Positions 7,617 through 64,000 of a stretch of DNA of 64,000 bases are shown here, piece after piece; positions within the stretch are counted from its first letter, which is position 1, and each line of letters begins with the position of its first letter. The notes below the pieces were generated by a model. It was not told the DNA's origin and ran no database searches. It saw only the letters and a program-made list of their open reading frames with translations. The DNA is from Actinomycetota bacterium (GTDB lineage: Bacteria > Actinomycetota > Actinomycetes > Nanopelagicales > Nanopelagicaceae): the NCBI GenBank assembly GCA_005800815.1, contig SYEK01000028.1:1-64000 (forward strand), in the 5' to 3' direction. The position numbers were made by a program, and so were the translations under genes.

Positions 7617-9278
7617 TTAGGACTGACTCCAACCCGATGTCATCGGTAATCGGCGATCTTTTCCAAAGGCGCGAGATGAGACCTTGGTACCAGGTGGATA
7701 TTGGCGGCGCTTGTACTCGGCCCTATCCACCAGCGCGATGACACGAGTGATCAGCTCTGGCTCAAAACCATCTTTGACCAAGAGTTCATAGCCATGATCT
7801 TCATCGACATAGAGGCGCAACACTTTATCGAGCAGCAGGTAATCGGGAAGGGAGTCTGTGTCCCTCTGATCGGGGCGCAGCTCTGCGCTGGGCTCTTTGG
7901 TGATGGAGCGCTGCGGAATCGGTGGGGTCAGACCCGATAGCCGGGCCTGCTCGTTTCGCCATCGGGCCAATGCCCAAACATCGCTCTTGTAAATATCTTT
8001 GATAGGTGCAAAGCCGCCCACGGCATCGCCATACAGAGTCGAATATCCAACTGCGAGCTCACTCTTATTTCCCGTCGCAAGGACGATATGGCCCTCGGCA
8101 TTAGAGATCCCCATCAAGCTGGTGCCCCGCACCCTCGCCTGTAGATTCTCCTCAGCCAAGCCAGAGAGATGTAGAGTGTTCATAAATCCATCGACCATCG
8201 CTGCGATAGGCAGCTTGCGAAAATGAATGCCTGTTGCATCGGCAAGGGCCTGGGCATCCTCAAGTGAATGCGATGAGGAGTATTTGCTCGGCATGGCAAC
8301 GCCATACACGTTTTTTGCGCCAACGGCATCGATAGCGATGGCAGCGACCAGGGCCGAATCAATTCCACCCGATAATCCCAACACAACGGATGTGAATCTA
8401 TTCTTTGAGATGTAATCACGCAGGCCAACCACCAGAGCCTTCCAGATCTGCCCCTCATCACTTAAGCGAGCTGCGATCACCGAAGTGATGCTCTCCAAGG
8501 ATGCACCTACATCGCTAGAGATGAGCAGATCGGGCCGTGAGGAGTTTGTGACGCACTCGACGTCGACAAACATCACAAGATCATCAAACTGCGGGGCTCG
8601 AGCGATGAGAGTGCCCTCCTTATCAACAACGATTGAATCGCCATCAAAGACAAGATCATCCTGGCCCCCTGTCATGTTGACATAGGCCAAAGGGGCACCG
8701 ACTTGGCGGGCGCGTTTTTGCACAAGGGCCAATCGCAGATCATCTTTATTTCGTTCGTACGGTGAGCCGTTGGGGACCACAACCAAGCCAGGTGTGCGAT
8801 CGGCCAATTCGGCCAATGAGTGCCAGATGTCCTCACAGATTGCGATAGCCACATCGACGCCATGAATGCGCACCACAAGGGAGGAGTCACCGGCGGTGAA
8901 GTTCCTGAACTCATCAAAGACGCCATAGTTGGGCAGGTGGCGTTTGACGTAGCGGGCCTTGATCTCACCATCATGGATGATTGCAACGGCGTTCTGGGGC
9001 TTACCTTCATCTGAGGTCTCCAGATAACCCACCACTGCAACGATCTGCGCGCTCACGCAGGATGCGATCTTTGCGATCATGGCCTTACTTGCCGATTGGA
9101 AGGATGGCCGCAGCGCCAGATCCTCAACTGGATAGCCCGTCACCATCATCTCGGGAAAGAGCACTAGATGCGCGCGAGCGCTCTGGGCCGAGGCGATCGA
9201 TGCTGCGATCAGCTCGCTATTTCCCTCAAGATCTCCCACAGTGGGGTTGATCTGAGCCAGGGCCAGGCGCAGCTTCAT
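7617..9278 (-). CDS. nadE: Glutamine-hydrolysing NAD+ synthase
   Basis: N-terminal nitrilase domain MKLRLALAQINPTVGDLEGN... and synthase P-loop LGLSGGIDSALVAAIA. Confidence 0.95.
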   Translation of the reverse strand: MKLRLALAQINPTVGDLEGNSELIAASIASAQSARAHLVLFPEMMVTGYPVEDLALRPSFQSASKAMIAKIASCVSAQIVAVVGYLETSDEGKPQNAVAIIHDGEIKARYVKRHLPNYGVFDEFRNFTAGDSSLVVRIHGVDVAIAICEDIWHSLAELADRTPGLVVVPNGSPYERNKDDLRLALVQKRARQVGAPLAYVNMTGGQDDLVFDGDSIVVDKEGTLIARAPQFDDLVMFVDVECVTNSSRPDLLISSDVGASLESITSVIAARLSDEGQIWKALVVGLRDYISKNRFTSVVLGLSGGIDSALVAAIAIDAVGAKNVYGVAMPSKYSSSHSLEDAQALADATGIHFRKLPIAAMVDGFMNTLHLSGLAEENLQARVRGTSLMGISNAEGHIVLATGNKSELAVGYSTLYGDAVGGFAPIKDIYKSDVWALARWRNEQARLSGLTPPIPQRSITKEPSAELRPDQRDTDSLPDYLLLDKVLRLYVDEDHGYELLVKDGFEPELITRVIALVDRAEYKRRQYPPGTKVSSRAFGKDRRLPMTSGWSQS

Positions 9279-24223: not shown

Positions 24224-25573
24224 TCAGTTGATTGACAGAGATGCAAAGCCCTCTTCAAGGACATCCATCGCATCAAGAAGAAGCTCATCTGTAATAACTA
24301 GCGGCGGTAAGAAGCGAATCACATTGGAGTAAGTCCCAGCGGTCAAGATCAGAACACCTTTACTCTGGCAGTACTTCACGACTGCATTCATAGCGGCAGT
24401 GTTTGGGACCTTGCTTCCTGCCTCCACGAGTTCGATCGCCTGCATCGCACCGCGCCCACGCACCTCTCCGATGATGGGATACTTCTTTTGGAGCGCTCGT
24501 AGGGATTGCCCCAAAACTGTGCCGATGTGAGCGGCTCGGGAGACAAGGGATTCGGCCTCGATCGTCTCGATTGCGCCCAGGGCTGCGGCGCAGGCGATTG
24601 GATTACCCCCGAAAGTTCCACCCAAGCCTGAGACATGCACCGAGTCCATGATCTCGGCCCGGCCCGTGACTCCGGCAAGAGGTAATCCCCCAGCGATTCC
24701 CTTGGCCGTAATCATCATATCTGGCACGAGATTCTCATCTTCAACGGCGAACATACGACCCGTGCGGGCAAAACCAGTTTGAACCTCATCTGCGATGAAC
24801 ACGATGCCGTTATCGGCTGCATATGTTGCAAGTGCTGGCATAAAACCCTGGGGGGGAACGATAAATCCGCCCTCACCCTGAATGGGTTCGATCAAAATCG
24901 CAGCGACGTTATGTGCACCGATCTCTTTTTCGATCTTAGAGGTGACCATCTCAAGTGCATCATCTGTGATTGTGGCCTGATCACCGAGCCAGTGAAAAGA
25001 GTATGGCATCGGTACACGATAAATCTCTGGGGCAAAGGGACCAAAGCCCTCTTTGTAGGGCATGTTTTTGGCCGTCAAGGCCATCGTCAAATTTGTACGA
25101 CCGTGATAGCTGTGCTCAAAGACGACGATAGCTGCACGCTTGGTGTAATGACGTGCGATCTTTACTGCGTTTTCAACGGCCTCGGCCCCTGAATTGACAA
25201 GGATTGACTTTTTCTTATGAGTGCCAGGAGTGAGCGCATTGAGTTTTTCACAGACCTCGATGTAGCCCATATATGGAGCGACAGTGAAACAGGTGTGAGT
25301 AAATGCCTGAACCTGCTCAATGACACGATCGACAACACGGCCTGCGGCATTACCAACATTGACGACACCGATACCAGAGCCCAAGTCGATGATCTGGTTT
25401 CCATCGATATCGAGCAGGATGGCATCGCTTGCGCGCTCGATGACAACAGGAATAGCCATTCCCAAAGCCTGGGATGTCGCCTCAGTGCGGCGCTTGATCG
25501 CCTCGATAGATTTTGGTCCAGGGATTGCGCTCACTAGTCGACGCTCTTGGGTAAGACCAGTCACGGTAGTCAT
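24224..25573 (-). CDS. gabT: 4-aminobutyrate aminotransferase (class III)
   Basis: VNVGNAAGRVVDRVIEQVQAFTHTCFTVAPYMGYIEVCEKLNALTPG...; FIADEVQTGFARTGRMFAVE; ITAKGIAGGLPLAGVTGR. Confidence 0.93.
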   Translation of the reverse strand: MTTVTGLTQERRLVSAIPGPKSIEAIKRRTEATSQALGMAIPVVIERASDAILLDIDGNQIIDLGSGIGVVNVGNAAGRVVDRVIEQVQAFTHTCFTVAPYMGYIEVCEKLNALTPGTHKKKSILVNSGAEAVENAVKIARHYTKRAAIVVFEHSYHGRTNLTMALTAKNMPYKEGFGPFAPEIYRVPMPYSFHWLGDQATITDDALEMVTSKIEKEIGAHNVAAILIEPIQGEGGFIVPPQGFMPALATYAADNGIVFIADEVQTGFARTGRMFAVEDENLVPDMMITAKGIAGGLPLAGVTGRAEIMDSVHVSGLGGTFGGNPIACAAALGAIETIEAESLVSRAAHIGTVLGQSLRALQKKYPIIGEVRGRGAMQAIELVEAGSKVPNTAAMNAVVKYCQSKGVLILTAGTYSNVIRFLPPLVITDELLLDAMDVLEEGFASLSIN

Positions 25574-25629
25574 GAGTAAAGTCTAAGGCTTTATTTCCCA
25601 ACCACAGGCCGAAAAGTTAGGCTAGGAGC

Positions 25630-27063
25630 ATGAGTTCATTGAGAGCTTCGGCACCGTTATTAGATGCCTATCTCACATATTTTCAGAGCCTGCGCCAACC
25701 ATTCACTATTCCCGGACACAAGCAGAGAGCATCGCGATTAGATCTTGGGCTGGGCCAAGTCGTCGATAGCGATATCCCCCTCTACGGTGGCCTGGATGAG
25801 ATTAAGTTAACTAACCAAGTCCTTCAGAGGGCTGAGGGCCTTGCCGCCACTCTCTGGGGGGCGGAGTATGCGCGCTTTTCAACGGGTGGATCGACCCATG
25901 CCAACCAGGCCATCATTTTGGCACTGGGAAAACCTGGCGATAAGGTCGCACTGACTCGCAATGCGCACCGCTCTGTATTGAGCGCACTCGTCTTGGCTGG
26001 ATTGGAGCCGATATGGCTATCACCTCAGATCGATACGGCAACGGGTGTCCCTATAGGAATCTCACTCTCAGAGTTTGAAAAGATCATCGAGCAAGGCCCA
26101 ATCGCACTGCTGTTGACCGAGCCTGGATATCTAGGAACACTCTCGGATCTACCAGCTCTGGTAGGAAGTGCGCATTCACATGCAATTCCCGTCATTGTCG
26201 ATGCAGCGTGGGGTGGCCACTTTGGTTTCTCACCACTCGTGCCAGATCACGCTCTAGCAATGGGGGCAGATGCCTTAATTACGAGCACTCATAAGGCCTT
26301 GCCAGGTTACAGCGCATCTGCCGTGTTGATTGCCCAAGGAAAGTATCTGGATCTCGATCGAATAGAGCAGGCCTTTGAGACTACTCATACGACATCACCT
26401 GCAGGTGCTCCTCTGGCATCTATCGATGCTTGTCGTGCTCTTTTGCAGCTTCGAGGAAGAGAGTTGATTCAAGAGTTGCTCACTACCATTGAAGAGTTCA
26501 AGCAAGAGATCCAAGCCCACTTTGATATCCCAATCTTCCTGAATTCAAGTGATTTCCCACCAGGCCGATTTGATCCCACAAAGATCGTCCTTCGCACCAA
26601 TCAAATTGGAGCCTCTGGCGTTGAGATTGAAAAGGCTTTGCAGACACAGATGATCCGCGTTGAGATGGCAGATAATGACACCATCGTCTTCTTGGCAACC
26701 TTGGTTGACTCAAGGGAGGATTTTGATCACCTGGCTCACACCCTCATTCCAATACTTACCAGCCAAAAGGGGCCTGCCAGAGCCAGCGCCGCCTCCGTGA
26801 GCTGGTCCACCATCCCAACGGTTGCAATCTCAATGCGCCAGGCCTTCTTTGCCCAGACAGAGATGCTCGCTTCCGATGAGGCGATAGGCCGAATCTCTGC
26901 CGACTTGATTGCTCCCTATCCCCCAGGAGTTGCCGTTGTTGCACCTGGTGAAGTCTTGACTGGGGCCATTGTCGAGGGTCTTTCTGCAGCAAAGGCGGCC
27001 GGTGTGCGGATCGCATATTCAACTGACCCAACCCTTATGAGGTATCGAGTCATTAAAAGTTAA
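25630..27063 (+). CDS. Orn/Lys/Arg decarboxylase-family PLP enzyme
   Basis: FTIPGHKQRASRLD...STGGSTHANQAIILAL...VDAAWGGHFGFSP...TSTHKALPGYSASAVL (PLP-Lys motif). Confidence 0.9.
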   Translation: MSSLRASAPLLDAYLTYFQSLRQPFTIPGHKQRASRLDLGLGQVVDSDIPLYGGLDEIKLTNQVLQRAEGLAATLWGAEYARFSTGGSTHANQAIILALGKPGDKVALTRNAHRSVLSALVLAGLEPIWLSPQIDTATGVPIGISLSEFEKIIEQGPIALLLTEPGYLGTLSDLPALVGSAHSHAIPVIVDAAWGGHFGFSPLVPDHALAMGADALITSTHKALPGYSASAVLIAQGKYLDLDRIEQAFETTHTTSPAGAPLASIDACRALLQLRGRELIQELLTTIEEFKQEIQAHFDIPIFLNSSDFPPGRFDPTKIVLRTNQIGASGVEIEKALQTQMIRVEMADNDTIVFLATLVDSREDFDHLAHTLIPILTSQKGPARASAASVSWSTIPTVAISMRQAFFAQTEMLASDEAIGRISADLIAPYPPGVAVVAPGEVLTGAIVEGLSAAKAAGVRIAYSTDPTLMRYRVIKS

Positions 27064-27131
27064 GGGGGAGTTCCATCATGTGCACCCGAGGGCATTCGCA
27101 GAGCGAGCAAACAGCGATATAAGGTGGAGTT

Positions 27132-28616
27132 GTGAACGTGAGCACTAACTGGCATCAACGCGCCCTTGAACTCAAGCCAGCGTCACAGATTTTTATCGAT
27201 GGTAATTATATTGATGCGGCATCTGGCAAGACCTTCGAGGATATTGCACCCCATGATGATCGTCTTATCGCTCATGTCGCATCGGGTGATGTTGAAGACA
27301 TAGATCGCGCAGTCAAATCCAGTAAAAAAGTATTTGAAAATGGCACATGGCGAGAGATGAATCCTCGCGATAAGAAAGCGATCATGCTGCGATGGTCTGC
27401 ACTCATGCTTGAAAATAGGGAGGAGTTAGCCTTACTTGAGGCAGTTGATACGGGAAAACCTATCGGAGATACGTTATCTGTGGATGTGCCGAACGCTGCG
27501 CGAGTGATCTCGTGGTATGGCGAAACAATCGATAAAACCTATGAGGAGATAGCCCCTGCACCGCGCAACGCCCTTGCGATGATCACACGTGAACCCCTGG
27601 GGGTGATCGGCGCTGTGGTGCCCTGGAACTATCCTTTGATGATCACTTCTTGGAAGATAGGCCCAGCACTTGCCATGGGCAACAGTATTGTCGTCAAGCC
27701 CGCCGAAAACTCAACTCTTAGCACCCTGCGTATTGCCGAGTTGGCCATGGAGGCAGGTTTGCCTGCAGGTGTCTTTAACGTTGTGCCCGGCCTTGGGATC
27801 GAGGCAGGTCAAGCACTTGCCCGGCACATGGATGTTGCAAAGATTGCATTCACTGGAAGTCCGGCAGTTGGGCGCAACATGCTCAGATACGCCGCCGAAT
27901 CAAATATGAAACAGGTAGCCCTTGAACTCGGTGGCAAGAGTGCACAAGTTATTCTCAATGACTGCGTTGATCTAGAGGCCGCCGCATCTGCAATTGGATG
28001 GGCGATTTATTACAACGCTGGACAGACATGCAGCGCTGGTTCTCGAATCATCGTTGAAGAGGGCATCAAAGATGAGTTGTTCGCCCACCTTCGCAGATTT
28101 CTTGAGAGCTTCGTAGTTGGAAGCCAGTTCAACCCTTTGACCCAGATGGCTGGCTTGGTCTCAAAGCCCCAACGAGATCGAGTCAATGGCTATCTCGATT
28201 TGATCGGCCAGGACGGTGAAAAAATAGTCTTTGGTGGAGAAAAGAGTGAGGGTGCAGACCTACTGATCGCTCCTACTCTGATCGATAATGTAAAACCAGT
28301 ATCTCGCCTTGCTCAAGAGGAGATCTTTGGTCCTGTCTTAGTTTCAATCGATGCACAAGATGCCGATGAGGCGATATCTATCGCCAATGGAACTGAGTAC
28401 AGCCTGGCTGCCTCGATCTGGACCAGTAATATCGCAAAAGCACACACTCTTGCGCGCAGACTGCGTGCAGGCACTGTGTGGGTCAACACCTTCGATATGG
28501 TAGATGTGATCACACCGATAGGCGGCTTTGGATTATCGGGCAGTGGTCGCGACAAATCTCTCCACGCTTTAGATACCTATAGCGCCTTAAAGACCACTTG
28601 GATTGATCTCAACTAA
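27132..28616 (+). CDS. NAD(P)-dependent aldehyde dehydrogenase (PuuC / aminobutyraldehyde DH-like)
   Basis: VVPWNYPLMITSWKIGPALAMGNSIVVKPAENS; LELGGKSAQVIL; NAGQTCSAGSR catalytic Cys. Confidence 0.92.
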   Translation: MNVSTNWHQRALELKPASQIFIDGNYIDAASGKTFEDIAPHDDRLIAHVASGDVEDIDRAVKSSKKVFENGTWREMNPRDKKAIMLRWSALMLENREELALLEAVDTGKPIGDTLSVDVPNAARVISWYGETIDKTYEEIAPAPRNALAMITREPLGVIGAVVPWNYPLMITSWKIGPALAMGNSIVVKPAENSTLSTLRIAELAMEAGLPAGVFNVVPGLGIEAGQALARHMDVAKIAFTGSPAVGRNMLRYAAESNMKQVALELGGKSAQVILNDCVDLEAAASAIGWAIYYNAGQTCSAGSRIIVEEGIKDELFAHLRRFLESFVVGSQFNPLTQMAGLVSKPQRDRVNGYLDLIGQDGEKIVFGGEKSEGADLLIAPTLIDNVKPVSRLAQEEIFGPVLVSIDAQDADEAISIANGTEYSLAASIWTSNIAKAHTLARRLRAGTVWVNTFDMVDVITPIGGFGLSGSGRDKSLHALDTYSALKTTWIDLN

Positions 28617-35599: not shown

Positions 35600-37102
35600 G
35601 TGAAGAGAGATGTCGATGCTGATTTTTTAGCGCTTCCTTTGGCGGCAGTAACTGAGGTCGCCATAGGTTCGGCACAGGCCGCTGGCGCATCCCATGTCGA
35701 TGTGCGAATCGAGCGCACTCGCACAGGATTGCTCTCACTGCGCGATGCCAAAGCTGAGACACAAAGTGATGAGACTCTGGCAGGTCTGGGTGTTCGAGTA
35801 ATCGTCAATGGTGCCTGGGGCTTTGCATCGGCCCCTGAAATCTCTGTAATAGCAGCCAAGCAGTTGGCGCTGAGCGCGGTTGCAATGGCCAAGATATCTA
35901 AGCCTCTCTCAACTGAGCTTGTCTCACTTGTCACCGAGCCCATCTATGCCAATCAAAAATGGGTATCTGAGTATGAGATAGATCCGTTTCAAATCTCGGA
36001 TTCAGAGAAGAGGGATCGCCTGGCTCATTTGAGCAATGAGTTATTAAAATCTGCAACGGTGAATCACACCTCAGCACTCACCATGTATGTCAAAGAGCAG
36101 AAGCACTATGCAGACTCTTATGGCACGAGTACTACTCAGCAACGAGTACGTGTTCAGACTCAGATTGAAGCGATTTCAATCGGTGCTGATGGTTTCGAAT
36201 CCATGCGCACCTTAGCCCAGCCTGCAGGCTTTGGTTGGGAGTGGATGGGTAGTGAGCATTGGAACTGGGATGAGGAGATAGCTCAGCTACCAACTTTGTT
36301 GGCAGAGAAAACCGCTGCACCATCGGTTGAACCTGGTCGCTACGACCTACTCGTTCATCCCTCAAACTTATGGCTCACGATCCATGAGTCGATCGGGCAT
36401 GCCACAGAGCTCGACCGTGCTATCGGCTATGAGGCCAACTATGCAGGCACATCCTTTGCAACTCCCGATAAATTGAATACTTTGAAGTATGGATCTGCTC
36501 TCATGAACGTCACGGGAGATCGAAATACAGCTCATGGCTTGAGTACTGTGGGATTTGATGATGAGGGTGTTGCCGCCCAGCAGTGGGACATCATCAAAGA
36601 TGGTGTCTTGGTTGGCTATCAGCTCGATCGGCGGATAGCTGCGCGTGTCAATCGTGATCGAAGCAATGGTTGCGCCTACGCAGACTCCCCCGCACATGTT
36701 CCCATTCAGCGCATGCCAAATGTCTCCCTGGCCGCAAATCCGGCAGGACCAACCTATGAGGAGATGGTCGCATCTATGGAGGATGGCATCATCATCAAGG
36801 GTGATAAGTCGTGGTCGATTGATATGCAGCGCTATAACTTCCAATTTACCGGCCAACAGTTTCATCGCGTGAAGAATGGGAAAATCCTCGGTCAATTGAA
36901 AGATGTCGCATACCAAGCGACAACCACTGATTTTTGGGGGTCGATGAAGGTCGTCGGTGGGCCATCAACCTATGTCTTGGGTGGTGCATTCAACTGTGGC
37001 AAGGCCCAACCTGGACAGGTTGCAGCGGTCAGCCATGGATGTCCGGCGGCGATATTCGATCAGGTCAATATTCTTAACACCGTTACTGAGGCCGGCAAAT
37101 GA
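35600..37102 (+). CDS. tldD: TldD-family metallopeptidase
   Basis: GTG start; VHPSNLWLTIHESIGHATELDRAIGYEANYAGTSF (HExxxH), DGVLVGYQLDRRIAARVNRDRSNGCAYADS. Confidence 0.94.
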   Translation: MKRDVDADFLALPLAAVTEVAIGSAQAAGASHVDVRIERTRTGLLSLRDAKAETQSDETLAGLGVRVIVNGAWGFASAPEISVIAAKQLALSAVAMAKISKPLSTELVSLVTEPIYANQKWVSEYEIDPFQISDSEKRDRLAHLSNELLKSATVNHTSALTMYVKEQKHYADSYGTSTTQQRVRVQTQIEAISIGADGFESMRTLAQPAGFGWEWMGSEHWNWDEEIAQLPTLLAEKTAAPSVEPGRYDLLVHPSNLWLTIHESIGHATELDRAIGYEANYAGTSFATPDKLNTLKYGSALMNVTGDRNTAHGLSTVGFDDEGVAAQQWDIIKDGVLVGYQLDRRIAARVNRDRSNGCAYADSPAHVPIQRMPNVSLAANPAGPTYEEMVASMEDGIIIKGDKSWSIDMQRYNFQFTGQQFHRVKNGKILGQLKDVAYQATTTDFWGSMKVVGGPSTYVLGGAFNCGKAQPGQVAAVSHGCPAAIFDQVNILNTVTEAGK

Positions 37103-38481
37103 TTCGTGCCCAAGAGCTCATTGAAAAGATCACATCAGATGCAACCTGTGATGACTGCATCGTCGTCGTCAAGGATAAGACTCAGGCCAACCTGCGCTGG
37201 GCCGGCAGCACCTTGACGACCAATGGTGTCATTCAGGAGCGAAGCCTCACTGTAATCGCCTTTGTGAAGACAGGTGAAGGTATGGCAACCGGTGGGGTCA
37301 CCCGCACCGATGTGAATCTGACGGATGTGCCTGCCTTATTGGCAGAGGCTATAGCTTCGGCAAAGGCTGGAGAAAGAGCCGAGGACTTTGCCCCCCTGGC
37401 AACCGACATCTCCATCGGTAATTGGGCAGCCCCGCACACTGCAACTGGGCCAGAGGTTTTTTCCACATTTGCACCTGCCCTTGGTGAGATGTTCTCGCGC
37501 TCTGTCTCTGATGCGATAGAGCTCTTTGGCTACGCCGAACACACCAGTGAGACGACGTGGATCGGCTCAAAGGGTGGTCTGCGTCTTCGAAAAGATAGCC
37601 CTGTTGGTCGCGTTGAGATGACTGGAAAGTCACACAATCGCACTCGTTCAACATGGAGTGGCGTTGAGACCCGAGACTTCAAAGATGTATCTGTGGCATC
37701 AATCGATTCACATATTCGCCAGCGTCTGACCTGGCAAGCACGTCAGGTAGATCTTCCCGCCGGGCGCTATGACACTCTTCTTCCCTCTGGGTCCGTTGCC
37801 GATCTCTTCACCTACATGATGTGGGTATCTGCAGCTCGGGATGCGCATGAGGGTCAATCTGTATTCTCTAAAAAAGGTGGCGGAACCCGCGTAGGAGAAA
37901 AACTCTCGAATGTGGGTCTCCAGTTCTTTAGCGACCCAAGTTATGAGGCCTTGCCTGCAGCCAACTTTGTCGCCACGGCAGTGAGCTCACCATACTCATC
38001 GGTCTTTGATAACGGACAGCCGATCAAGCGCGTGGATTGGTTCAAAGATGGTGTCCTTAAATCCCTGATCCAGACTCGCGCGAGTGCACAGATGACAAAG
38101 CTTGATTTCACACCTATAGCTGAGAATTTGATTATGAGGGTTGATGGAGGCCAAGGCACACTCGAGGATCTTGTGAAGAAGATCGAGAACGGACTGCTCT
38201 TGACTACTTTTTGGTATATCCGTATGGTCGATCCAAACTCGCTGCTTCTTACAGGTTTGACAAGAGATGGTGTCTATCATGTCAAAAGTGGCGAGGTTGT
38301 AGGTGCCACCAATAACTTCCGTTGGAATGACTCTCCCGTTTCAGCGCTGAATCGAATTATGCATGCCGGTGCCAGCGAGTGGACTCAGCCCCGTGAGTGG
38401 GCCGGCGATATGGCTAATATGGTGACTCCACCGCTGATCATCAAAGATTTCAATATGTCCACTCTCAGCCCTGGGAGCTAA
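37099..38481 (+). CDS. tldE: TldE/PmbA-family partner protein
   Basis: PAGRYDTLLPSGSVADLFTYMMW...SKKGGGTRVGEKLSNVGLQFFSDP; ATG overlaps the tldD stop. Confidence 0.92.
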   Translation: MIRAQELIEKITSDATCDDCIVVVKDKTQANLRWAGSTLTTNGVIQERSLTVIAFVKTGEGMATGGVTRTDVNLTDVPALLAEAIASAKAGERAEDFAPLATDISIGNWAAPHTATGPEVFSTFAPALGEMFSRSVSDAIELFGYAEHTSETTWIGSKGGLRLRKDSPVGRVEMTGKSHNRTRSTWSGVETRDFKDVSVASIDSHIRQRLTWQARQVDLPAGRYDTLLPSGSVADLFTYMMWVSAARDAHEGQSVFSKKGGGTRVGEKLSNVGLQFFSDPSYEALPAANFVATAVSSPYSSVFDNGQPIKRVDWFKDGVLKSLIQTRASAQMTKLDFTPIAENLIMRVDGGQGTLEDLVKKIENGLLLTTFWYIRMVDPNSLLLTGLTRDGVYHVKSGEVVGATNNFRWNDSPVSALNRIMHAGASEWTQPREWAGDMANMVTPPLIIKDFNMSTLSPGS

Positions 38482-54252: not shown

Positions 54253-55728
54253 ATGACAGGTTCACCATCCCGGCCTCAATGGCTAAGTAGTGACTCCTTG
54301 GATGAAAATTTACTGGGAAGTTTGAGTGAAAACCTTATAGACCAGCCTCATGAAGCCCGAGGTCTGATAGGTATTGCTCGACGAGATATCACCCCACCTT
54401 TTGGGATCTATGGTCCTGTTTGGGGATTTTCCACCCATGATGGAAGTTCGAGGGGCACTCATAAACCGATATTTGCTACAGCCTTAGTATTTTCCCCACA
54501 GGCGGCAAGTAAACCAATGGTCATAGTTGGTGTGGATCTTGGCACCACAGGAGATCTCACGGGCCTTGAAGATGAGTGGATAAGAAGAGATGTCTCTGCA
54601 CAGTTAGATATTCCTCTCTCTCACCTCATGTTGGCATCATCACATACTCATGGAGCACCTTGGGCATATCGAAGTCGTGTGGATTTCCCCGGAGGTGATT
54701 TGATTGAGGGGTATCTAAATCTGTTGAAAAGGGGGATTTTAGAGGCCTCACGAGAGGCGATAGAAACAGCTGAGAATTGCATCATCACTTTTAAATCAGG
54801 ACGGTGTGATTTAGCAAAAAACCGTAACCTTGCAGATCCAGCAAACCCAAGCCGATATCTCACGGGCTTTAATCCAGCTAATCAATCCATTGCAGATGAC
54901 ACTGTTATGGTTGGTCGAATCACTCGAGCAAGTGATAACTCAATTAAAGGAACCGTAATTAACTATGCCTGCCACCCCACTACTCTTGGCGGAGAAAATC
55001 GTTTAGTCTCACCTGACTTTATTGGGGGTATGCGCGATGTAATGGAGGCGCATACAGATGGTGCAATTTGTCTCTTCCTTCAGGGTGCATCCGGAGATCT
55101 AGCTCCAGCCTTTCAGTACGTTGAAGATACTTCGATTGCAGACCGCCATGGCCATCAACTTGGCTTTGCTGGGCTCTCCACCCTCACTGGAATGTATCCT
55201 GCAGGTCAACGATTGGAGTACGTCAGGCCAATTGAATCAGGAGCGCCACTGGCCTATTGGGAGCCACGCTCATATCAGATTCCTGATAATCATTCGATTA
55301 ATTATGAAATTGTAGGTCTGCCCTCTAAAGATTGGCCAAGCGTTGGCGAATTAGATCGTCAATTAGAGGTAGAAAGTGATTTTCGAATTCGTGAACGTTT
55401 GATTCGAAAGAAGACAATTGCAAACTTTACTCAAGGCAAAAATGAGATTCCAACCCAAGTGTTTGCTTGGGCATTTGGAAATTTGATTTTTGTTGCAATC
55501 TCATGTGAAATGGATGTTGCCTGGCAAAAAGAAGTGAGGGCGGCTTTCCCAGGGTATAGCGTGATCGCTATAACCGCTGTTAATTACTCTGCAATCGGAT
55601 ATATAGTTCGGGAAGAGTTGTGCGATCTCAATCTTTATCAAGCATGGCAACCACCTTATGGGAAAGGTTCTTTTGACTCACTTTTGAAGCACTGTATTAG
55701 ATTGATGACAAAGTCTCTTGCAAAATAA
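54253..55728 (+). CDS. Neutral/alkaline ceramidase fold-family hydrolase (non-canonical)
   Basis: GIARRDITPPFGIYGPVWGF, ASSHTHGAPWAYR, INYACHPTTLGG, LQGASGDLAPAF. Confidence 0.82.
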   Translation: MTGSPSRPQWLSSDSLDENLLGSLSENLIDQPHEARGLIGIARRDITPPFGIYGPVWGFSTHDGSSRGTHKPIFATALVFSPQAASKPMVIVGVDLGTTGDLTGLEDEWIRRDVSAQLDIPLSHLMLASSHTHGAPWAYRSRVDFPGGDLIEGYLNLLKRGILEASREAIETAENCIITFKSGRCDLAKNRNLADPANPSRYLTGFNPANQSIADDTVMVGRITRASDNSIKGTVINYACHPTTLGGENRLVSPDFIGGMRDVMEAHTDGAICLFLQGASGDLAPAFQYVEDTSIADRHGHQLGFAGLSTLTGMYPAGQRLEYVRPIESGAPLAYWEPRSYQIPDNHSINYEIVGLPSKDWPSVGELDRQLEVESDFRIRERLIRKKTIANFTQGKNEIPTQVFAWAFGNLIFVAISCEMDVAWQKEVRAAFPGYSVIAITAVNYSAIGYIVREELCDLNLYQAWQPPYGKGSFDSLLKHCIRLMTKSLAK

Positions 55729-55784
55729 TTACTGAGGCTCTTTTGAAGTATAGGACTTGCTCTCAGTATTCAGTATGTCATCTA

Positions 55785-56702
55785 TCAGATACCAGATAAA
55801 AATCTCTGTGGATTTTTCCTAGTTAGGGTATCAATCTGATTCTCATTCACTCCAGCGTCACGAAGAAGTGGTAAGAATTTGGTGATTAAAAATTTATATC
55901 CCTCTCCGCCATGAATTTGCAAACGAGAACGACTTGCAATATCGGTCGAAATCAAAATCTGCCCAAGCCATCCCTCGCTGATTAAGGTCGCGATAGTCTT
56001 TGCTCGGCGTTCATCACGCTGCTTGTCTAATTGACCAATCGCATCATATCCAATCCATACTCCCCGGCGGAGCAACTTTCTTGAATACTCAACATCTCGA
56101 TTGGTATCACAATGACCGATTAAAGTTTTGTCAAGATCGGCTCCGGCACTCTCAAGAATATCCAACTGTGTTATTCCTACTTCAGTAAAAAGAGCATGAG
56201 TGGCAATCGGCGTCTTAGTCTCGCGCTGTACCAATGCGGCAGCCTCTAAGACTTTCCGCTCATTTACTTTGACACCACGGTGATGTGTGCCGAGCTCTCC
56301 CATAATTCCTGCCTTAATATCAGTGCCAGGAAAACCTTTGGTGATATGACTGGTAAATCGATCTGCGATTTGAGAAACACTCCATTGATCTAGCCACTCT
56401 GGATAGTACTGCTGATGATAAAAGCCAGTACCAGCCACGATATGGACTCCCGTAGCTTGGGAAATAGTAGCTAGTCCTTGAGGGTCAGGATGAAGGCCAT
56501 AAATGGTCTGATCTACAATCGTATTACCTCCAGCAGCACGATAAAATTCCAGTTCTTCACACATCGTTGATAATTCTAAAAGCACGCCATCAGAATTTCG
56601 CCGGACATCATAGGTATCAACTAAAAGATGTTCATGTGGCAAAATAAAACCGAGATCCTCTGCAATCACTGGTCCGAGGACTGTCTCTACGCTTCTCATC
56701 AC
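55785..56702 (-). CDS. Phosphotriesterase-family metal-dependent hydrolase
   Basis: VLGPVIAEDLGFILPHEHLLVDTYDVRRN (HxH), AGIMGELGTHHRG, LIGHCDTNRD. Confidence 0.9.
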   Translation of the reverse strand: MMRSVETVLGPVIAEDLGFILPHEHLLVDTYDVRRNSDGVLLELSTMCEELEFYRAAGGNTIVDQTIYGLHPDPQGLATISQATGVHIVAGTGFYHQQYYPEWLDQWSVSQIADRFTSHITKGFPGTDIKAGIMGELGTHHRGVKVNERKVLEAAALVQRETKTPIATHALFTEVGITQLDILESAGADLDKTLIGHCDTNRDVEYSRKLLRRGVWIGYDAIGQLDKQRDERRAKTIATLISEGWLGQILISTDIASRSRLQIHGGEGYKFLITKFLPLLRDAGVNENQIDTLTRKNPQRFLSGI

Positions 56703-56822
56703 ATTCTCCTTAAATTATAGATCTCATTCACCATCAGTACATTAAACGCCTTTATATCTGTCGAGCCTACTACTAGAAATAGAATTGAGAATCTAAGTAT
56801 GGAATTAATGGGGCTTGAACTA

Positions 56823-56859
56823 CTTGACTCATAGATATATATTCTAGCTATGAGTCAAG
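56823..56859. promoter_or_regulatory. 12-bp perfect inverted repeat over the -10 region and start codon of the creatininase-family gene
   Basis: CTTGACTCATAG-atatatattctag-CTATGAGTCAAG; upstream TTGAAC (56815-56820)-N17-TATATT (56838-56843) fits a leaderless promoter with TSS at the ATG (56850). Confidence 0.65.
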
Positions 56860-57692
56860 CAAATCAAAGTACAAACGCTCATCAGTGGGGTACGCTTACC
56901 TGGCGTGAGATAGATAAACTCGACCCTGATAGAACAATTTTCTTACTGCCAACTGGTGCGATTGAACAACATGGTCCTCACTTGCCCATAGATACCGATA
57001 TATTCAACTCTAATTCACTTGTAAATGCCGTAGCAAAAAATTGGAAGACAACAGATCAGACAATTGACTCAAAGGTAATTGCCCTCCCACCCATCTGGTG
57101 GGGAACATCCCCTCACCATAAAGGTTTTTCAGGCACTATCTCATTACGTATTGAGACGTTTCACTCACTACTCTCCGACATTTTTTCATCAATTACCCAG
57201 CATGGTTTTTACCGCTTCCTTATTATCAACGGTCATGGTGGCAATGCAGGGATTTTGAATGCATCAACCGGGGAGCTTAGTGAATCACTCGGGGTCTCAA
57301 TTCCAACTTACTCGTACTGGCAATCGATCATAAGCACTTTGATAGAGCTTGGTGAATCAGAAATTGGCGGAATGGGGCATGCTTGTGAGATGGAGACATC
57401 ACTTGCTCTCTATCTCCGTCCAGAGTTGGTCAACTTAAATGAGTTAAGACAGGATCTCCCGAAATCGAGACTTGCGCTCTCCTGCATCGATTTTCGCCAA
57501 CCAGGTTTTCTCGGTATTCCCCTGGACTTTCGTCGCGACTCACGAGAAGGGGTCATGGGTGATCCCACTCTGGCTACAAAAGAAAAAGGCCAGCGAATAT
57601 TTAATGATGCACTTCTTGCGGCAAACGGCCTGGTCAAATCTCTCTTTGAGACAGAGTCTTCATCACTAAAAACTAGCCATTTTAGTCATTAG
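56850..57692 (+). CDS. Creatininase-family amidohydrolase
   Basis: LLPTGAIEQHGPHLPIDTDIFNSN, PPIWWGTSPHHKGFSGTISL, INGHGGNAGIL, GGMGHACEMETSLAL. Confidence 0.94.
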   Translation: MSQANQSTNAHQWGTLTWREIDKLDPDRTIFLLPTGAIEQHGPHLPIDTDIFNSNSLVNAVAKNWKTTDQTIDSKVIALPPIWWGTSPHHKGFSGTISLRIETFHSLLSDIFSSITQHGFYRFLIINGHGGNAGILNASTGELSESLGVSIPTYSYWQSIISTLIELGESEIGGMGHACEMETSLALYLRPELVNLNELRQDLPKSRLALSCIDFRQPGFLGIPLDFRRDSREGVMGDPTLATKEKGQRIFNDALLAANGLVKSLFETESSSLKTSHFSH

Positions 57693-57713
57693 AAGAGCTT
57701 AAGAACTAAATCA

Positions 57714-58388
57714 ATGTTAGTGCTCTCGGTCAAGTTATTACTAGCTCCCTTCTTCATAATCCTGACCTATTTGATTCAAGGAAAATTTGGTCCACGCTTT
57801 GGCGGTATCTTTATGTCAATTCCTTTTATTGTTTCACCGATCTTGGCAGTTATCTATCTCCAACATGGAAGTGAATTTCTCTATGAGGCAATCATTGGAA
57901 CATATTCAGGTCAAATTGGATTACTTTTTTTTATTTTAACTTATTCACATCTTGCTCAAAGATTTCCCTGGCAAATATGCATCTTTTCAGCGACATCAGC
58001 ATTCTTATTAGCAGTGACTATCTTTGGACAATTAATTAGCAATCTATGGCTAGGAATCATTCTCTGGTCATTTCTTTGGGCAATACTATTGAAAAACTTT
58101 CCTTTTTATGAGAAAAAATCACAACTTTCACCAGCACCAAATTGGGATCTTTGGATTCGTATCGCCTCAGCTCTCACTTTAATTATCACCATAACACAAT
58201 TTGCTCAAGTTTTAGGGCCTCAACTTTCTGGTGCTTTTGCAATGTACCCAATCATGACTTCAATTATGTCAACTTTCAATCATTATCGATATGGGACTGA
58301 TGCATCAGTCGCGCTCATGCACGGTCTAACGCAGTATCTCTTTGTTACAACTCTTTTCATTTTTCCTTTTATTACTCTTTTCCTCTAA
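57714..58388 (+). CDS. Polytopic membrane protein of unknown function
   Basis: Six or more hydrophobic stretches (KLLLAPFFIILTYLIQGKFGPRFGGIFMSIPFIVSPILAVIYL...); no family recognised with confidence. Confidence 0.8.
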   Translation: MLVLSVKLLLAPFFIILTYLIQGKFGPRFGGIFMSIPFIVSPILAVIYLQHGSEFLYEAIIGTYSGQIGLLFFILTYSHLAQRFPWQICIFSATSAFLLAVTIFGQLISNLWLGIILWSFLWAILLKNFPFYEKKSQLSPAPNWDLWIRIASALTLIITITQFAQVLGPQLSGAFAMYPIMTSIMSTFNHYRYGTDASVALMHGLTQYLFVTTLFIFPFITLFL

Positions 58389-58435
58389 AATTCCATTGGA
58401 AATTTCCTGGAAATCTGTGAGTAAACCAAAATGTA

Positions 58436-58463
58436 TTGACAAGATTTTGATACCTGCTATCTT
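58436..58463 (+). promoter_or_regulatory. Sigma70-type promoter candidate
   Basis: TTGACA - 16 nt - TATCTT upstream of the ORF starting at 58503. Confidence 0.6.
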
Positions 58464-58502
58464 TGTATTGAGTAGAGTTCAATAAATGAGAGTTGGTTCG
58501 AA

Positions 58503-59942
58503 GTGACGCCATTGAAAGTTGGATCAGCATCAGTAATTATCAGCCCACCCCTTGGGCTTAGAAAGGGTGGATTCAGACTCTTTGGTGAGCCAATCTCATC
58601 AATTGATGAGGATATTGAGCTGGGGGTTGCTGTATTTGAATCAAAGGGAGTGAAGGTTGCCCTTATCGCCTCTGATTTAGGATCAGCAACCACAAATGAA
58701 GCGAATGAATTTAGAGATGTCGTTGCGGAAATCCTCAAAATTGAGCGTTCACATGTTCTTTTCAATCTAAGCCACAACCATAGCTCCCCTGCATTATTGG
58801 GATTTATCGGATCTCCCGCTCTCGAGGAGAATTACACAGAAATTACTGCCTACTACCGCAATCTTGTTGACAAGATTGCTGATTGCACAAGATCTGCCCT
58901 TCAATCGATGAAAGATGCACGAATGGCAACTGCGTGGGGTTCAGCCGATCTCAATATTTATCGTAGAGAGTGGAATCAAGGCCAAGATATTCTTGGAGAA
59001 GTAGTTGGGCATCGAGTTGACGATAGCGTTGGGGTAATTCGCTTTGATGATCTTGATGGAAAAGCGATTTTGACATTGTTTCGATACTCGTGTCATCCCG
59101 TAGTCAATGGTGCAGCCTCACCGAGTCTCTCTGCTGACTTTCCAGGCCCAGCCCGCCGCCTTGTGCAGGAAAAAGTTGGCGGGCTCGCCTTCTTCTTGCA
59201 AGGTTGCGGCGGTAATCTCAACCCCCAAGTAGGAATTGGGTATGAACGTGATTGTAGCGAGTCAGTCTATCGAGTCGGTACCGCCCTTGGTGCCGAAGTT
59301 GTCCGTCTTGCTCTTGGAATCAATACTCATCGCTTTCAGAGTGAGCGGACAACGCTTAATGGCGTTCCCAATATTCTCTTTAAACCTTGGCACAAACGGA
59401 GCGATCATCCAGACGTCATACTTGCTGGTGCTCAAGAGGTTGTACCTTTTAAGTTTTCACAACTTCCCAGTGAGAGTTTTCTTCGTGTTGAGGAGGAGAA
59501 GTGGCGAAAAGAGATTGAAGAGAGAATTGCTCGTGGGGCACTAACCTGGGAGATTCGCATAGCGCGCGCCACTCATGCTTGGGCAGTTGCCACCTTAGAG
59601 CGCGTGAAAGATCAAAATCCCACTTGTGATTTCATCGCACATGCACTTCGAATCGGTGATGTTGCACTTGTTGGACTTGGCGTTGAGGCATTTTTTGAGA
59701 CCGGTGAGACGATACGCGCACAATCACCGTGCCCAAATACTTTTGTTCTCGGATATAGCAATGGCATGATTATGTATCTGCCACGAAAAGAGGATTTTCC
59801 GAAGGATGGATGGAAATGGCCGAACACTCATGCCCTCCCCGACCTCCTGCCACAGGTTTATTGCCAACCTGCTCTGTGGCATCCTGATTCAGAGTCAGAG
59901 GCAGTTGCCGCTGCTGTGAAAGCTCTGCATCGAGTTCATTAA
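58503..59942 (+). CDS. Neutral/alkaline ceramidase fold-family hydrolase (non-canonical)
   Basis: GTG start; VGSASVIISPPLGLRKGGFRLFGEPIS, FNLSHNHSSPALLGF, FRYSCHPVVNGA, LQGCGGNLNPQ. Confidence 0.82.
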   Translation: MTPLKVGSASVIISPPLGLRKGGFRLFGEPISSIDEDIELGVAVFESKGVKVALIASDLGSATTNEANEFRDVVAEILKIERSHVLFNLSHNHSSPALLGFIGSPALEENYTEITAYYRNLVDKIADCTRSALQSMKDARMATAWGSADLNIYRREWNQGQDILGEVVGHRVDDSVGVIRFDDLDGKAILTLFRYSCHPVVNGAASPSLSADFPGPARRLVQEKVGGLAFFLQGCGGNLNPQVGIGYERDCSESVYRVGTALGAEVVRLALGINTHRFQSERTTLNGVPNILFKPWHKRSDHPDVILAGAQEVVPFKFSQLPSESFLRVEEEKWRKEIEERIARGALTWEIRIARATHAWAVATLERVKDQNPTCDFIAHALRIGDVALVGLGVEAFFETGETIRAQSPCPNTFVLGYSNGMIMYLPRKEDFPKDGWKWPNTHALPDLLPQVYCQPALWHPDSESEAVAAAVKALHRVH

Positions 59943-60005
59943 TCACAATCAGCCCTAACTCAAAGAAGCTTGTCGTAGTGCGACACTGACCTGTAACCTC
60001 GACCC

Positions 60006-61046
60006 ATGAGCAGTACTGTCACTTGTTCTTTTGACATAAATAAACCTGGAAAAGATTCCGGGTACCTCATCATGGGTGATTCGACCAATAACAGTGGCTG
60101 GACCAGTTACAACGTCCCAATTATAAAGTTCTCAAATGGTGCGGGACCCACAGTTCTTGTGCTGGGTGGAAACCACGGCGATGAGTATGAAGGTCAGATT
60201 GCCGCTTCATCACTTGCGCATCAATTAGATTTAAATCAAGTCCAAGGACGCATCATCATCATCCCATGCTTATCTCAGGAGGCATCTCGCGCAGGGACTC
60301 GCTTATGGCCAGATGGTTCGAATTTTAATCGAGTGTTTCCAGGGAACGAGAATGGAAAACTAAGTGAAAAACTTGCCCACTATTTAAGCAGCTTCTTATT
60401 CCCGATCTGTGATGGGGTTCTAGACATGCACAGTGGTGGTAGAAGTATGCATTTCATTCCAAGTTCAAACATGACATGGGTCTCAGAACTAACTCAACGA
60501 ACTAAGATGATTAACAATATGTTGGCTTGGAATACAGACTTTCATATGGTTGGTCTAGAACAGGCTGGAACAAATCCTTACTCACTTCTCAATCGAAATG
60601 CTGAGCAACAAGGAAAGTCTGTTTCCACCGGAGAGTTTGGAGGCTCTGGATATACAACACCAGAGAGCATAAAAATCATCAAGGATGGACTTCTCAATTT
60701 CCTCAAAGCATTTGGGGTCCTCAGGGGCTTACCAGAAACTCGAGAAAGCCTTGGACTAAAACCTGCTGAAATTATATTTCTTGGTCCCGCAGGCTTCATT
60801 TCAGCAACTCACCACGGAATTTACGAAAACTGTGTTCGACTTGGCGCAGATATAGAAGTTGGCGATGTAGTTGGCAAGATTCATGACTTTGACCATCATA
60901 ATGTTGCACCCATTGAACTTCTAAGCAAGATTTCAGGGGTAGTAGCTGTCATAAGGGGCTTTCCTCCGATCACTATAGGCGATGTCGTCTGTGTGGTCGG
61001 AAAGAAATTGAATTCACTTGCTGAAATGGAAAAGGTGGCTGGTTAA
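60006..61046 (+). CDS. Succinylglutamate desuccinylase/aspartoacylase (M14, AspA/AstE-like) family protein, copy 1
   Basis: GGNHGDEYEGQIAASSLAHQL (HxxE), RLWPDGSNFNRVFPG, GVLDMHSGG. Confidence 0.92.
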   Translation: MSSTVTCSFDINKPGKDSGYLIMGDSTNNSGWTSYNVPIIKFSNGAGPTVLVLGGNHGDEYEGQIAASSLAHQLDLNQVQGRIIIIPCLSQEASRAGTRLWPDGSNFNRVFPGNENGKLSEKLAHYLSSFLFPICDGVLDMHSGGRSMHFIPSSNMTWVSELTQRTKMINNMLAWNTDFHMVGLEQAGTNPYSLLNRNAEQQGKSVSTGEFGGSGYTTPESIKIIKDGLLNFLKAFGVLRGLPETRESLGLKPAEIIFLGPAGFISATHHGIYENCVRLGADIEVGDVVGKIHDFDHHNVAPIELLSKISGVVAVIRGFPPITIGDVVCVVGKKLNSLAEMEKVAG

Positions 61047-61047
61047 A

Positions 61048-62091
61048 ATGAGTAGTACGGTCTCATCCTCAATTGACCTCAACGCAGAGGGAAAGGCGAC
61101 TGGCTATTTAATTATTGGGGATTCAACAAATAACAGCGGATGGGCCTCTTTCAGTGTACCCATTATTAAAATCAAAAACGGTGCGGGACCAACGGTATTA
61201 GTCCTTGCCGGTAATCATGGTGATGAATATGAGGGCCAATTTGCTGCAGCAACTTTGGCGCATGAGCTGAAAGATTCAGATGTGCGTGGTCGAATCATTA
61301 TTATTCCTTGCCTTTCCCAAGAAGCTTCCAAGGCTGGCACGCGTCTCTGGCCAACAGGGATTAACTTTAATCGTTCGTTTCCAGGAGAGGAAAATGGAGC
61401 GGTAAGCGATAAATTGGCACACTACCTGAGTACCGAACTCTTTCCAATGTCAGATGTGGTGATGGATATTCATAGTGGTGGACGTGGAATGTACTTTATT
61501 CCATGCTCTCATATGGTCTGGGCAAAGGACAAAATTCAACGAGTAAAGATGGCAGAAAGTATGATGGCATGGAATACGAGTCACCACTTAATTTTTCCAG
61601 AGCAACCGGGAACAGATCCTGCCTCCCTGCTTCCAGGTGAAGCAGAGCGTCAAGGCAAAACACTTTTCACGACCGAACTCGGTGGTTCGGGCATCGCCAC
61701 TTTCGAAACAACACAGCTGGCAAAAGATGGATTAAAAAATGCTCTGCGAACATGCGGTGTTATTGGTGGAGTACCAAAATCACGGGTGCAGATTGGGTTA
61801 TCTGCACCCATTTTTTTAGATATGCGTGGGCCAAATGCCTATCACTCAGCAACACATACTGGTCTTTATGAAAATATTGTTGGTTTAGGGAAGGCCGTTA
61901 AGAAGGATGAAGTTATAGGCCTTATCCATGAAATGGATCATCCCAATACAGATATAGTGGAGATAATTGCCAAGCAAGACGGGATTATTGGAGTTATGAG
62001 AGGTTTTCCAAGAGTCAAACCTGGAGATGTAGTGGCCGTAATCGGGAAGCCTTTTTCCTCGATAGATGAGATACAAGATATTTTTAGCTAA
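61048..62091 (+). CDS. Succinylglutamate desuccinylase/aspartoacylase (M14, AspA/AstE-like) family protein, copy 2
   Basis: AGNHGDEYEGQFAAATLAHEL, RLWPTGINFNRSFPG, VVMDIHSGG; start at 61048 just after the stop of copy 1. Confidence 0.92.
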   Translation: MSSTVSSSIDLNAEGKATGYLIIGDSTNNSGWASFSVPIIKIKNGAGPTVLVLAGNHGDEYEGQFAAATLAHELKDSDVRGRIIIIPCLSQEASKAGTRLWPTGINFNRSFPGEENGAVSDKLAHYLSTELFPMSDVVMDIHSGGRGMYFIPCSHMVWAKDKIQRVKMAESMMAWNTSHHLIFPEQPGTDPASLLPGEAERQGKTLFTTELGGSGIATFETTQLAKDGLKNALRTCGVIGGVPKSRVQIGLSAPIFLDMRGPNAYHSATHTGLYENIVGLGKAVKKDEVIGLIHEMDHPNTDIVEIIAKQDGIIGVMRGFPRVKPGDVVAVIGKPFSSIDEIQDIFS

Positions 62092-63476
62092 AAGCCAAGC
62101 CTGACTATGTATTCGTCAATAATCTCAAGTAAATCTTCGAATCCACCTGATGCTAATAGTGTCTGTGATGACTGATATGCATTTCTCTCATAAGCACTCT
62201 TTGTTGGGATGTAAATATACCCGGGACCATTAGTCATGTCTAAAAATAAAATCACAAAATTTGGGTGCCTGCGGCGCAACTCTTGCGCCATCTCAAAATA
62301 AGCCTCACCACAATGTGCAATCACCAATGCATCGCCTAATTGCCAAAACCAGATTGGATGATGTACTACTCCCCCCGGCTTGACGTAGTCAATTCTCATC
62401 TCAAATTGTTTTCTTATTCTAAATTTGAGGAATTCTTCACTCGCGGTCATGTGGCCCCATAGTTCACGCATTTGGGCCTCATCAAGCAATGGTTTATGTT
62501 TTAAAACAGCGCTCAACCGGCTTGCCCGAATCGTTGAATTTGGCACTACTGCCCGTGGTTCCCACCCTGCTAAATTAGAGCCGGATTTAATCACTTCGGT
62601 AAAAGCAAGTTCTGTTGAAGGTGGAAGCATTCGAGAGAGAGTGGCCAAGGTCGAATACCCCAACATCTCGCCGTTGCGATCAGCTATCGAGACGTCGCCA
62701 CTGTATTGCCTACGTGGTGCAACATTGCCACAAGCTCCTAACAAGAAGAGCATAGGTGCGCCAGTTTCATCCTCTACTATTTCGCGTGCTCTACCTATAT
62801 AGTCGGGACTAATGAGTGAACTCTCCCAACCGACGCTTGTCGGATGACAGCCATAGTTGATTAAAGTCGCTACATGATTCCCTGCTAGATTTGTAATGCG
62901 ACCCACAACAAGAGTGTCATCTGGAATGATTCCTGGGTTATAACCAACTACATCCGTACTACCAATGGGTAAGTCTCGGACAGTTCCAAGATCACATGTT
63001 CCATAGGCCCATGTGATATCAGCAATGGCAACTTGAGTACGCGCTTTCTTACAGATTTCAATTACAGAGCCGATCACTTTTTCAATGAAATCTGGGACTA
63101 GCTCTTTGCCTTCTCGTAGGGCTTCGTGAAGGCACATCGGTGGACTTTTATGTGTCTGACTTAAATTTACAAGTAAATCATCGAGATTGATTCCTAATTC
63201 CTTAACTACCCTCTCTCGAAAATTTAAAACATCACATTCATAGCAACCAATCCAACCTAGATCCAGAGTTACTATGAATAGATCGCTCTGGCCGCGAATA
63301 CAGAGAGCAACTGCCATCAATGGGCGATGTACTCCTGTGGAAATTGCACTCGTGCTCTTGCCCCAAGGATTTGATGAAATTCCGATCGGTGGAGTGATAT
63401 CAGCCTGGGATACGCCAATTTTCAAACGTGCAAGCGATGAACCTTCGTAATCGATAGTCGGACGAGTAGGGGTCAT
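62088..63476 (-). CDS. Neutral/alkaline ceramidase fold-family hydrolase (non-canonical)
   Basis: IGVSQADITPPIGISSNPWGKS, VNLSQTHKSPPMCLH, INYGCHPTSVGW, LLGACGNVAPRR. Confidence 0.82.
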   Translation of the reverse strand: MTPTRPTIDYEGSSLARLKIGVSQADITPPIGISSNPWGKSTSAISTGVHRPLMAVALCIRGQSDLFIVTLDLGWIGCYECDVLNFRERVVKELGINLDDLLVNLSQTHKSPPMCLHEALREGKELVPDFIEKVIGSVIEICKKARTQVAIADITWAYGTCDLGTVRDLPIGSTDVVGYNPGIIPDDTLVVGRITNLAGNHVATLINYGCHPTSVGWESSLISPDYIGRAREIVEDETGAPMLFLLGACGNVAPRRQYSGDVSIADRNGEMLGYSTLATLSRMLPPSTELAFTEVIKSGSNLAGWEPRAVVPNSTIRASRLSAVLKHKPLLDEAQMRELWGHMTASEEFLKFRIRKQFEMRIDYVKPGGVVHHPIWFWQLGDALVIAHCGEAYFEMAQELRRRHPNFVILFLDMTNGPGYIYIPTKSAYERNAYQSSQTLLASGGFEDLLEIIDEYIVRLGF

Positions 63477-64000
63477 AGATTCAAGTTTTTTGAAAACTTC
63501 AAGATTTCTTCCGAGACTTCATTGGTTATTTTCTCGAGTGCTCCAGGAGCAAGCAAGGTTTGCCATGCTTGATAGCGATGCCGTTCATATGCATCTGGTG
63601 TTGGTAAATACATATATCCTGGCCCGTTTGTACAATTAAGGACAAAAATTACTCGATCAGGGTGACGTCTGCGTAGCTCCATTTGAAAGTATGAATATGC
63701 CTCACCAGGTTGTCCAACGATTACCGCATCTCCCCACATCCAAATCCAAACTGGATGTATTGCTGCACCATCAATGACATAGCCTGTACGCAACTTCATA
63801 GCACGATTAATACGAGTTTCACGTGCGCCTTCTTCAACATCTTTCCAGCGTTGACGAAGCTCTTCAATCGTAGGGAGCTTTTGCAGGGGAACATCAACAT
63901 TTATACGTACATGGGAAACTTCGCTGGGTGGAATGAATACCTCATTATCCCAATCACCTAACAGTGCACCAGATTCAACTGATGCTAGATAGCGCATACG
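63473..64000 (-). CDS. C-terminal part of a fourth ceramidase fold-family paralog, truncated by window edge
   Basis: IHPVWIWMWGDAVIVGQPGEAYSYFQMELRRRHPDRVIFVLNCTNGPGYMYLPTPDAYERHRYQAWQTLLAPGALEKI aligns by eye with the 62088-63476 C-terminus; 4-nt overlap with that gene. Confidence 0.8.
   Translation of the reverse strand, partial: RMRYLASVESGALLGDWDNEVFIPPSEVSHVRINVDVPLQKLPTIEELRQRWKDVEEGARETRINRAMKLRTGYVIDGAAIHPVWIWMWGDAVIVGQPGEAYSYFQMELRRRHPDRVIFVLNCTNGPGYMYLPTPDAYERHRYQAWQTLLAPGALEKITNEVSEEILKFSKNLNL

Follow-up and report, generated by a model that had tools for sequence, protein, structure and literature searches.

Short neutral-ceramidase-like proteins clustered in an actinobacterial genome, one clade of which carries glutamine at a metal-site histidine position

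Neutral ceramidases and the ceramidase-like gene cluster

Neutral ceramidases have been termed Zn2+- or metal-dependent enzymes (PMC6303388; PMC5915598; PMC3146951). In the human enzyme (4WGK), the catalytic residues are His196, Arg257, Tyr579 and Tyr591, and the structure places Ser354 at the base of the pocket, where it merely positions Arg257 while zinc does the chemistry (PMC6952831). The premise that this serine is the nucleophile, from which a sequence-only reading of the present locus had started, is an older view of neutral ceramidase.

The window, that is, the whole stretch of 64,000 nucleotides that was analyzed, contains most of a single cluster of five ceramidase-like genes, here called A to E. 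An ORF check and alignment confirmed three complete genes with the motifs read from them earlier. Paralogue A (54253..55728, plus strand, 491 aa) has the hexapeptide GDLAPA together with SHTHGAP and CHPTT; the codon of A284, its hexapeptide "serine" position, lies at 55102..55104 (plus strand), and H131, H133, the CHP motif, E419 and Y450 are retained in the alignment. Paralogue B (58503..59942, plus strand, 479 aa) has GNLNPQ, SHNHSSP and CHPVV, with the corresponding N240 codon at 59220..59222 (plus strand). Paralogue C (62088..63476, minus strand, 462 aa) has GNVAPR, SQTHKSP and CHPTS, with the A253 codon at 62718..62720 and the codon of Q107, a glutamine in place of the first histidine of H-x-H, at 63156..63158 (both minus strand). 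The array continues past the window with D and E, which immediately precede C and share its strand. The C-terminal part of D lies at 63473..64000 (minus strand), overlapping the start of C; the gene is cut by the window edge, reaches to ~64882 in full and encodes 469 aa with GELSPR. Paralogue E (GDLSPR) extends to ~66356, outside the window, and E-D-C form one cassette.

A PTE-family hydrolase (minus strand), a creatininase-family hydrolase (plus) and a DUF3147-like gene (plus) occupy 55785..58388, and this block also adjoins B in loci L037, L039 and L041. Two tandem DoeB-like (AstE/AspA) deacylases (60006..62091, plus strand) are convergent with the E-D-C cassette, an arrangement repeated in sister loci L081, L082, L087 and L092. 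In sister genomes a further paralogue, F, stands beside B (L043:5316-6767, L039:13318-14769, L041:9672-11123 and L037:7751-9316), and its hexapeptide GNILPL or GNVLPL has leucine at the serine position. The window genome yielded no intact F copy. A degraded fragment elsewhere in that genome (G000:C34:22233-22418; L046 ~8230-8445) contains in-frame stops, aligns at 49% identity with 72 aa from the C-terminal region of B, and is a decayed further copy.

Family membership was examined at the level of sequence and of predicted structure. Paralogue A matched Pfam PF04734 (E 6.9e-13) and, by phmmer, 2zws (E 4e-6); D and E were also above the PF04734 cut-off, C was below it and B was missed by Pfam. 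A profile of all five proteins matched 4wgk (7.5e-16) and 2zws (1.9e-15). When the AF2 models of C and B (pLDDT 92.7 and 83.6, respectively) were searched with Foldseek, neutral ceramidases (2zws/4wgk) were the sole convincing PDB matches, with E ~1e-22 or better and, for B against 2zws, E 3e-25. On the basis of these profile and model matches the catalytic-domain fold is common with neutral ceramidase, as had been proposed, at ~14-16% identity to the solved enzymes. The PF17048 C-terminal domain was absent from the proteins and from the whole genome, although the search used did detect it in 8 of 297 genomes from the phylum, and inspection of the translations showed no hydrophobic N-terminus or signal peptide. 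The array proteins belong to a large, short (~440-490 aa) and probably cytosolic branch of the neutral-ceramidase superfamily, to which the Pfam family name attaches the label "ceramidase".

The hexapeptide serine and the predicted zinc site

The serine position is occupied by Ala, Asn and Ala in A, B and C, as had been noted, so that these three lack the GD[VM]SPN serine hexapeptide; D and E have Ser there, within the variant motifs given above. Of 112 close relatives, 74 have Ala here, 30 Ser and 8 Gly (72, 29 and 8, respectively, in a census of 109 relatives), and Asn is common at this position across the phylum at large. On a tree of the 112 rows, D orthologues included, it changed at least 15 times, and serine loss was rejected as a diagnostic feature of A, B and C. 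The D orthologues illustrate this: the copy in the window genome has Ser, while those of most sister species have Ala or Gly. The motifs of the array are not due to chance, since orthologues show them again; because Ser, Ala and Gly toggle inside orthologous groups, serine loss is uninformative on A, B and C specifically. Two-domain ceramidases retained GD[MV]SP in 6/6 readable cases, which argues that the position is constrained there and free in the short branch. At the sequence level, the optional serine sets the short bacterial family apart from the two-domain ceramidases.

The remaining active-site residues are far more stable. In the profile alignment with 4wgk and 2zws, human H196, R257, Y579 and Y591 map to conserved residues. 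Four of the five array proteins retain all of these, and B alone departs, with Trp in place of Tyr591. The superfamily residues H97, H99, R160, H204, E411, Y448 and Y460 (P. aeruginosa numbering) are all present in A, D and E, the exceptions being Gln for H97 in C and the same Trp, at Y460, in B. Across the census, His99, Arg160 and His204 (the CHP histidine) were each found in 109/109 relatives, and Glu411, Tyr448 and Tyr460 each in 107/107, two further rows being truncated. We take the zinc ligands of 2zws and 4wgk to be His97, His204, Glu411 and Tyr448. Zinc would be bound in the array enzymes as in these structures, and a zinc-activated water would serve as the nucleophile.

We consider it fairly probable that the array enzymes are short zinc hydrolases that direct activated water at a small polar substrate, the bond cut probably being an amide/N-acyl or a lactone bond. 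The metal-water mechanism suggested earlier is likely, although not for the reason then given, since neutral ceramidase is itself zinc-dependent with its serine in place (PMC6952831).

A clade with glutamine for histidine

The unusual feature of the array is the His-to-Gln swap of C, rather than serine loss. The three proteins had been described as keeping H-x-H, which is correct for A and B; C has lost the first His, its SQTHKSP motif being Q-x-H, and this change, which the sequence-only reading missed, is the real oddity of the locus. Q107 is equivalent to human His194 and P. aeruginosa His97. Gln occupies this position in 13/13 sequences of the C clade (12 in the census, truncated L088 included, plus the C of the window), all from freshwater actinobacteria, and in no other row, and the tree places the substitution as one change. 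It is one of six linked, clade-specific changes (numbered on the 462-aa ORF), the others being K110 (A to K, directly after the second His), G209 (A to G, before CHP), C249 (S to C, in the GASG loop), K356 (R to K) and D413 (N to D). Pseudogene decay of C was rejected in view of intact orthologues and dN/dS values of 0.03-0.09 for the four pairs in which dS was estimable, similar to those of D and E. Such low ratios indicate a maintained protein under strong purifying selection.

A possible reading, though not the one we prefer, is that C is a pseudoenzyme, catalytically dead since it lost a zinc-ligand His and retained because it assists D and E as a partner or regulates them. The otherwise invariant His (100/100 non-C rows), the six linked changes and the restriction of C to E-D-C cassettes, where E and D adjoin it, would all suit such a role. 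However, the second His, the Arg, the CHP His, the Glu and both Tyr residues are retained, dN/dS is as low as in the two putative partners, and natural enzymes with a Q-H-H site are active: the class B3 metallo-β-lactamases GOB and LRA-12, whose zinc site is naturally Gln-His-His, show high activity (PMC5531557). The Gln in C need not, for this last reason, mark a dead enzyme.

Our preferred reading is that C is a retained, functional paralogue with Gln for one metal-site His, which by analogy with the GOB-type enzymes probably still binds metal, with an altered metal or substrate preference. More tentatively, the clade may have a rebuilt metal site (Q107, K110, C249 and D413) with a different metal or reaction from D and E, the three proteins making up one functional cassette. 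The clade offers a natural experiment in how much alteration a metal site tolerates in a gene that selection maintains.

Immediately upstream of E, in the same orientation, are genes identified by inspection as a Fur-family (Zur-like) regulator and a znuBCA-like metal ABC importer whose binding protein is rich in His and Glu (L004:6595-9590; contig C26 66595-69590). None of the sister cassettes examined has such genes, and a zinc-uptake link was rejected as coincidence.

Gene neighbours, substrate and relation to known systems

The short family is widespread, with at least 578 relatives confirmed, the best 80 of which come from Actinomycetota, Bacteroidota, Chloroflexota and Armatimonadota. 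Of the genomes searched from the genus, only four besides that of the window (1.285 Mb, 99% complete) have the set, which makes it an accessory trait. Loci L081, L086 and L091 are titled Streptomyces griseus or Bifidobacterium breve, and their genes and gene order fit small freshwater actinobacteria; they are probably mis-titled MAGs.

The neighbours, for which each cluster was annotated from one representative, vary by phylum. Operons in Bacteroidota run from a class-III aminotransferase through a DgoD-type dehydratase (above the NCBIfam galactonate-dehydratase curated cut-off), an SDR and the ceramidase-like gene to an SSF symporter, often with a gluconolactonase-like (SMP-30) gene. In actinobacteria the recurrent neighbours are MR/MLE or IlvD/EDD dehydratases, SDRs and oligopeptide-type ABC importers, and in the freshwater group the pair of DoeB-like deacylases lies opposite the E-D-C cassette. 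Outside the freshwater group, MR/MLE dehydratases were found at most 8 kb away in 30 of 54 loci, which are related and not independent; the background in 15 host genomes is 206 genes in 85.7 Mb, that is, ~2.4 per Mb or ~0.04 per 17-kb stretch. In the literature searched, no paper tied ceramidase genes to galactonate dehydratase clusters or to Planktophila, a genus within the Nanopelagicaceae (Actinomycetota). The gene neighbours favor a small imported polar substrate, probably a sugar-acid or amino-acid-type compound. Elsewhere in the window, a 4-aminobutyrate transaminase (above the NCBIfam cut-off) and a PuuC-like aldehyde dehydrogenase (24224-28616) are, by their annotation, a GABA/putrescine-type catabolic pair, and a gene pair at 35600-38481 begins with a TldD metalloprotease-like gene, the second member having no NCBIfam match at the strict threshold.

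The same neighbours would accommodate a sugar lactonase, in which zinc-water chemistry acts on a lactone and not an amide. We regard this as doubtful yet worth weighing, given the sugar dehydrogenase-like SDRs, the galactonate/arabinonate-type dehydratases and the SMP-30/gluconolactonase-like genes nearby. However, several operons already have a gluconolactonase-like gene (8/54 loci), the window array lies amid amidase/deacylase genes, and amides are the bonds cut by the parent family.

It is quite improbable that the proteins are genuine ceramidases or lipid N-acyl amidases. Neutral ceramidases are their sole solved relatives and the catalytic residues are retained, but the low identity, the missing C-terminal domain, the lack of a signal peptide on inspection, the sugar-acid neighbours and a serine kept in the two-domain enzymes and not in the short branch all speak against it. 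The non-ceramide substrate proposed earlier is thus plausible for the array enzymes on their short length, domain content, apparent lack of a signal peptide and sugar-acid catabolic neighbours; serine loss in A, B and C, the ground originally given, is not what supports it. Covalent catalysis by another serine, four residues before the hexapeptide serine (GASG), is very improbable. The position is Ser in 97/100 non-C relatives, but B has Gly, every C sequence has Cys, and canonical enzymes show either Ala or Ser; in D and E this serine is present together with that of the hexapeptide, and structural work backs zinc catalysis.

In comparison with known systems, the array proteins share with neutral ceramidase (PaCD, 2zws/2zxc; human ASAH2, 4wgk; PF04734 plus PF17048) the catalytic-domain fold and the His-Arg-His-Glu-Tyr core. 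They differ in length (~470 versus ~650 aa), in having no C-terminal domain and no visible signal peptide, in the optional Ser, in sugar-acid/amide catabolic neighbours and, in C, in the Gln for the first His. The GOB/LRA-12 lactamases resemble C in the natural His-to-Gln change of a Q-x-H zinc motif in an active enzyme (PMC5531557), but they are di-zinc enzymes of an unrelated fold and family, and the likeness is an analogy only. The true siblings of A and C-E are the short ceramidase-like proteins of Actinomycetota, Bacteroidota and Chloroflexota, which have the same length, motifs and active-site core. To our knowledge no function has been assigned to these proteins. Judged from their sequences, they form a branch that retains the zinc-site residues, dispenses with the serine and probably acts on small polar metabolites, and in which Gln is confined to the freshwater-actinobacterial C clade.
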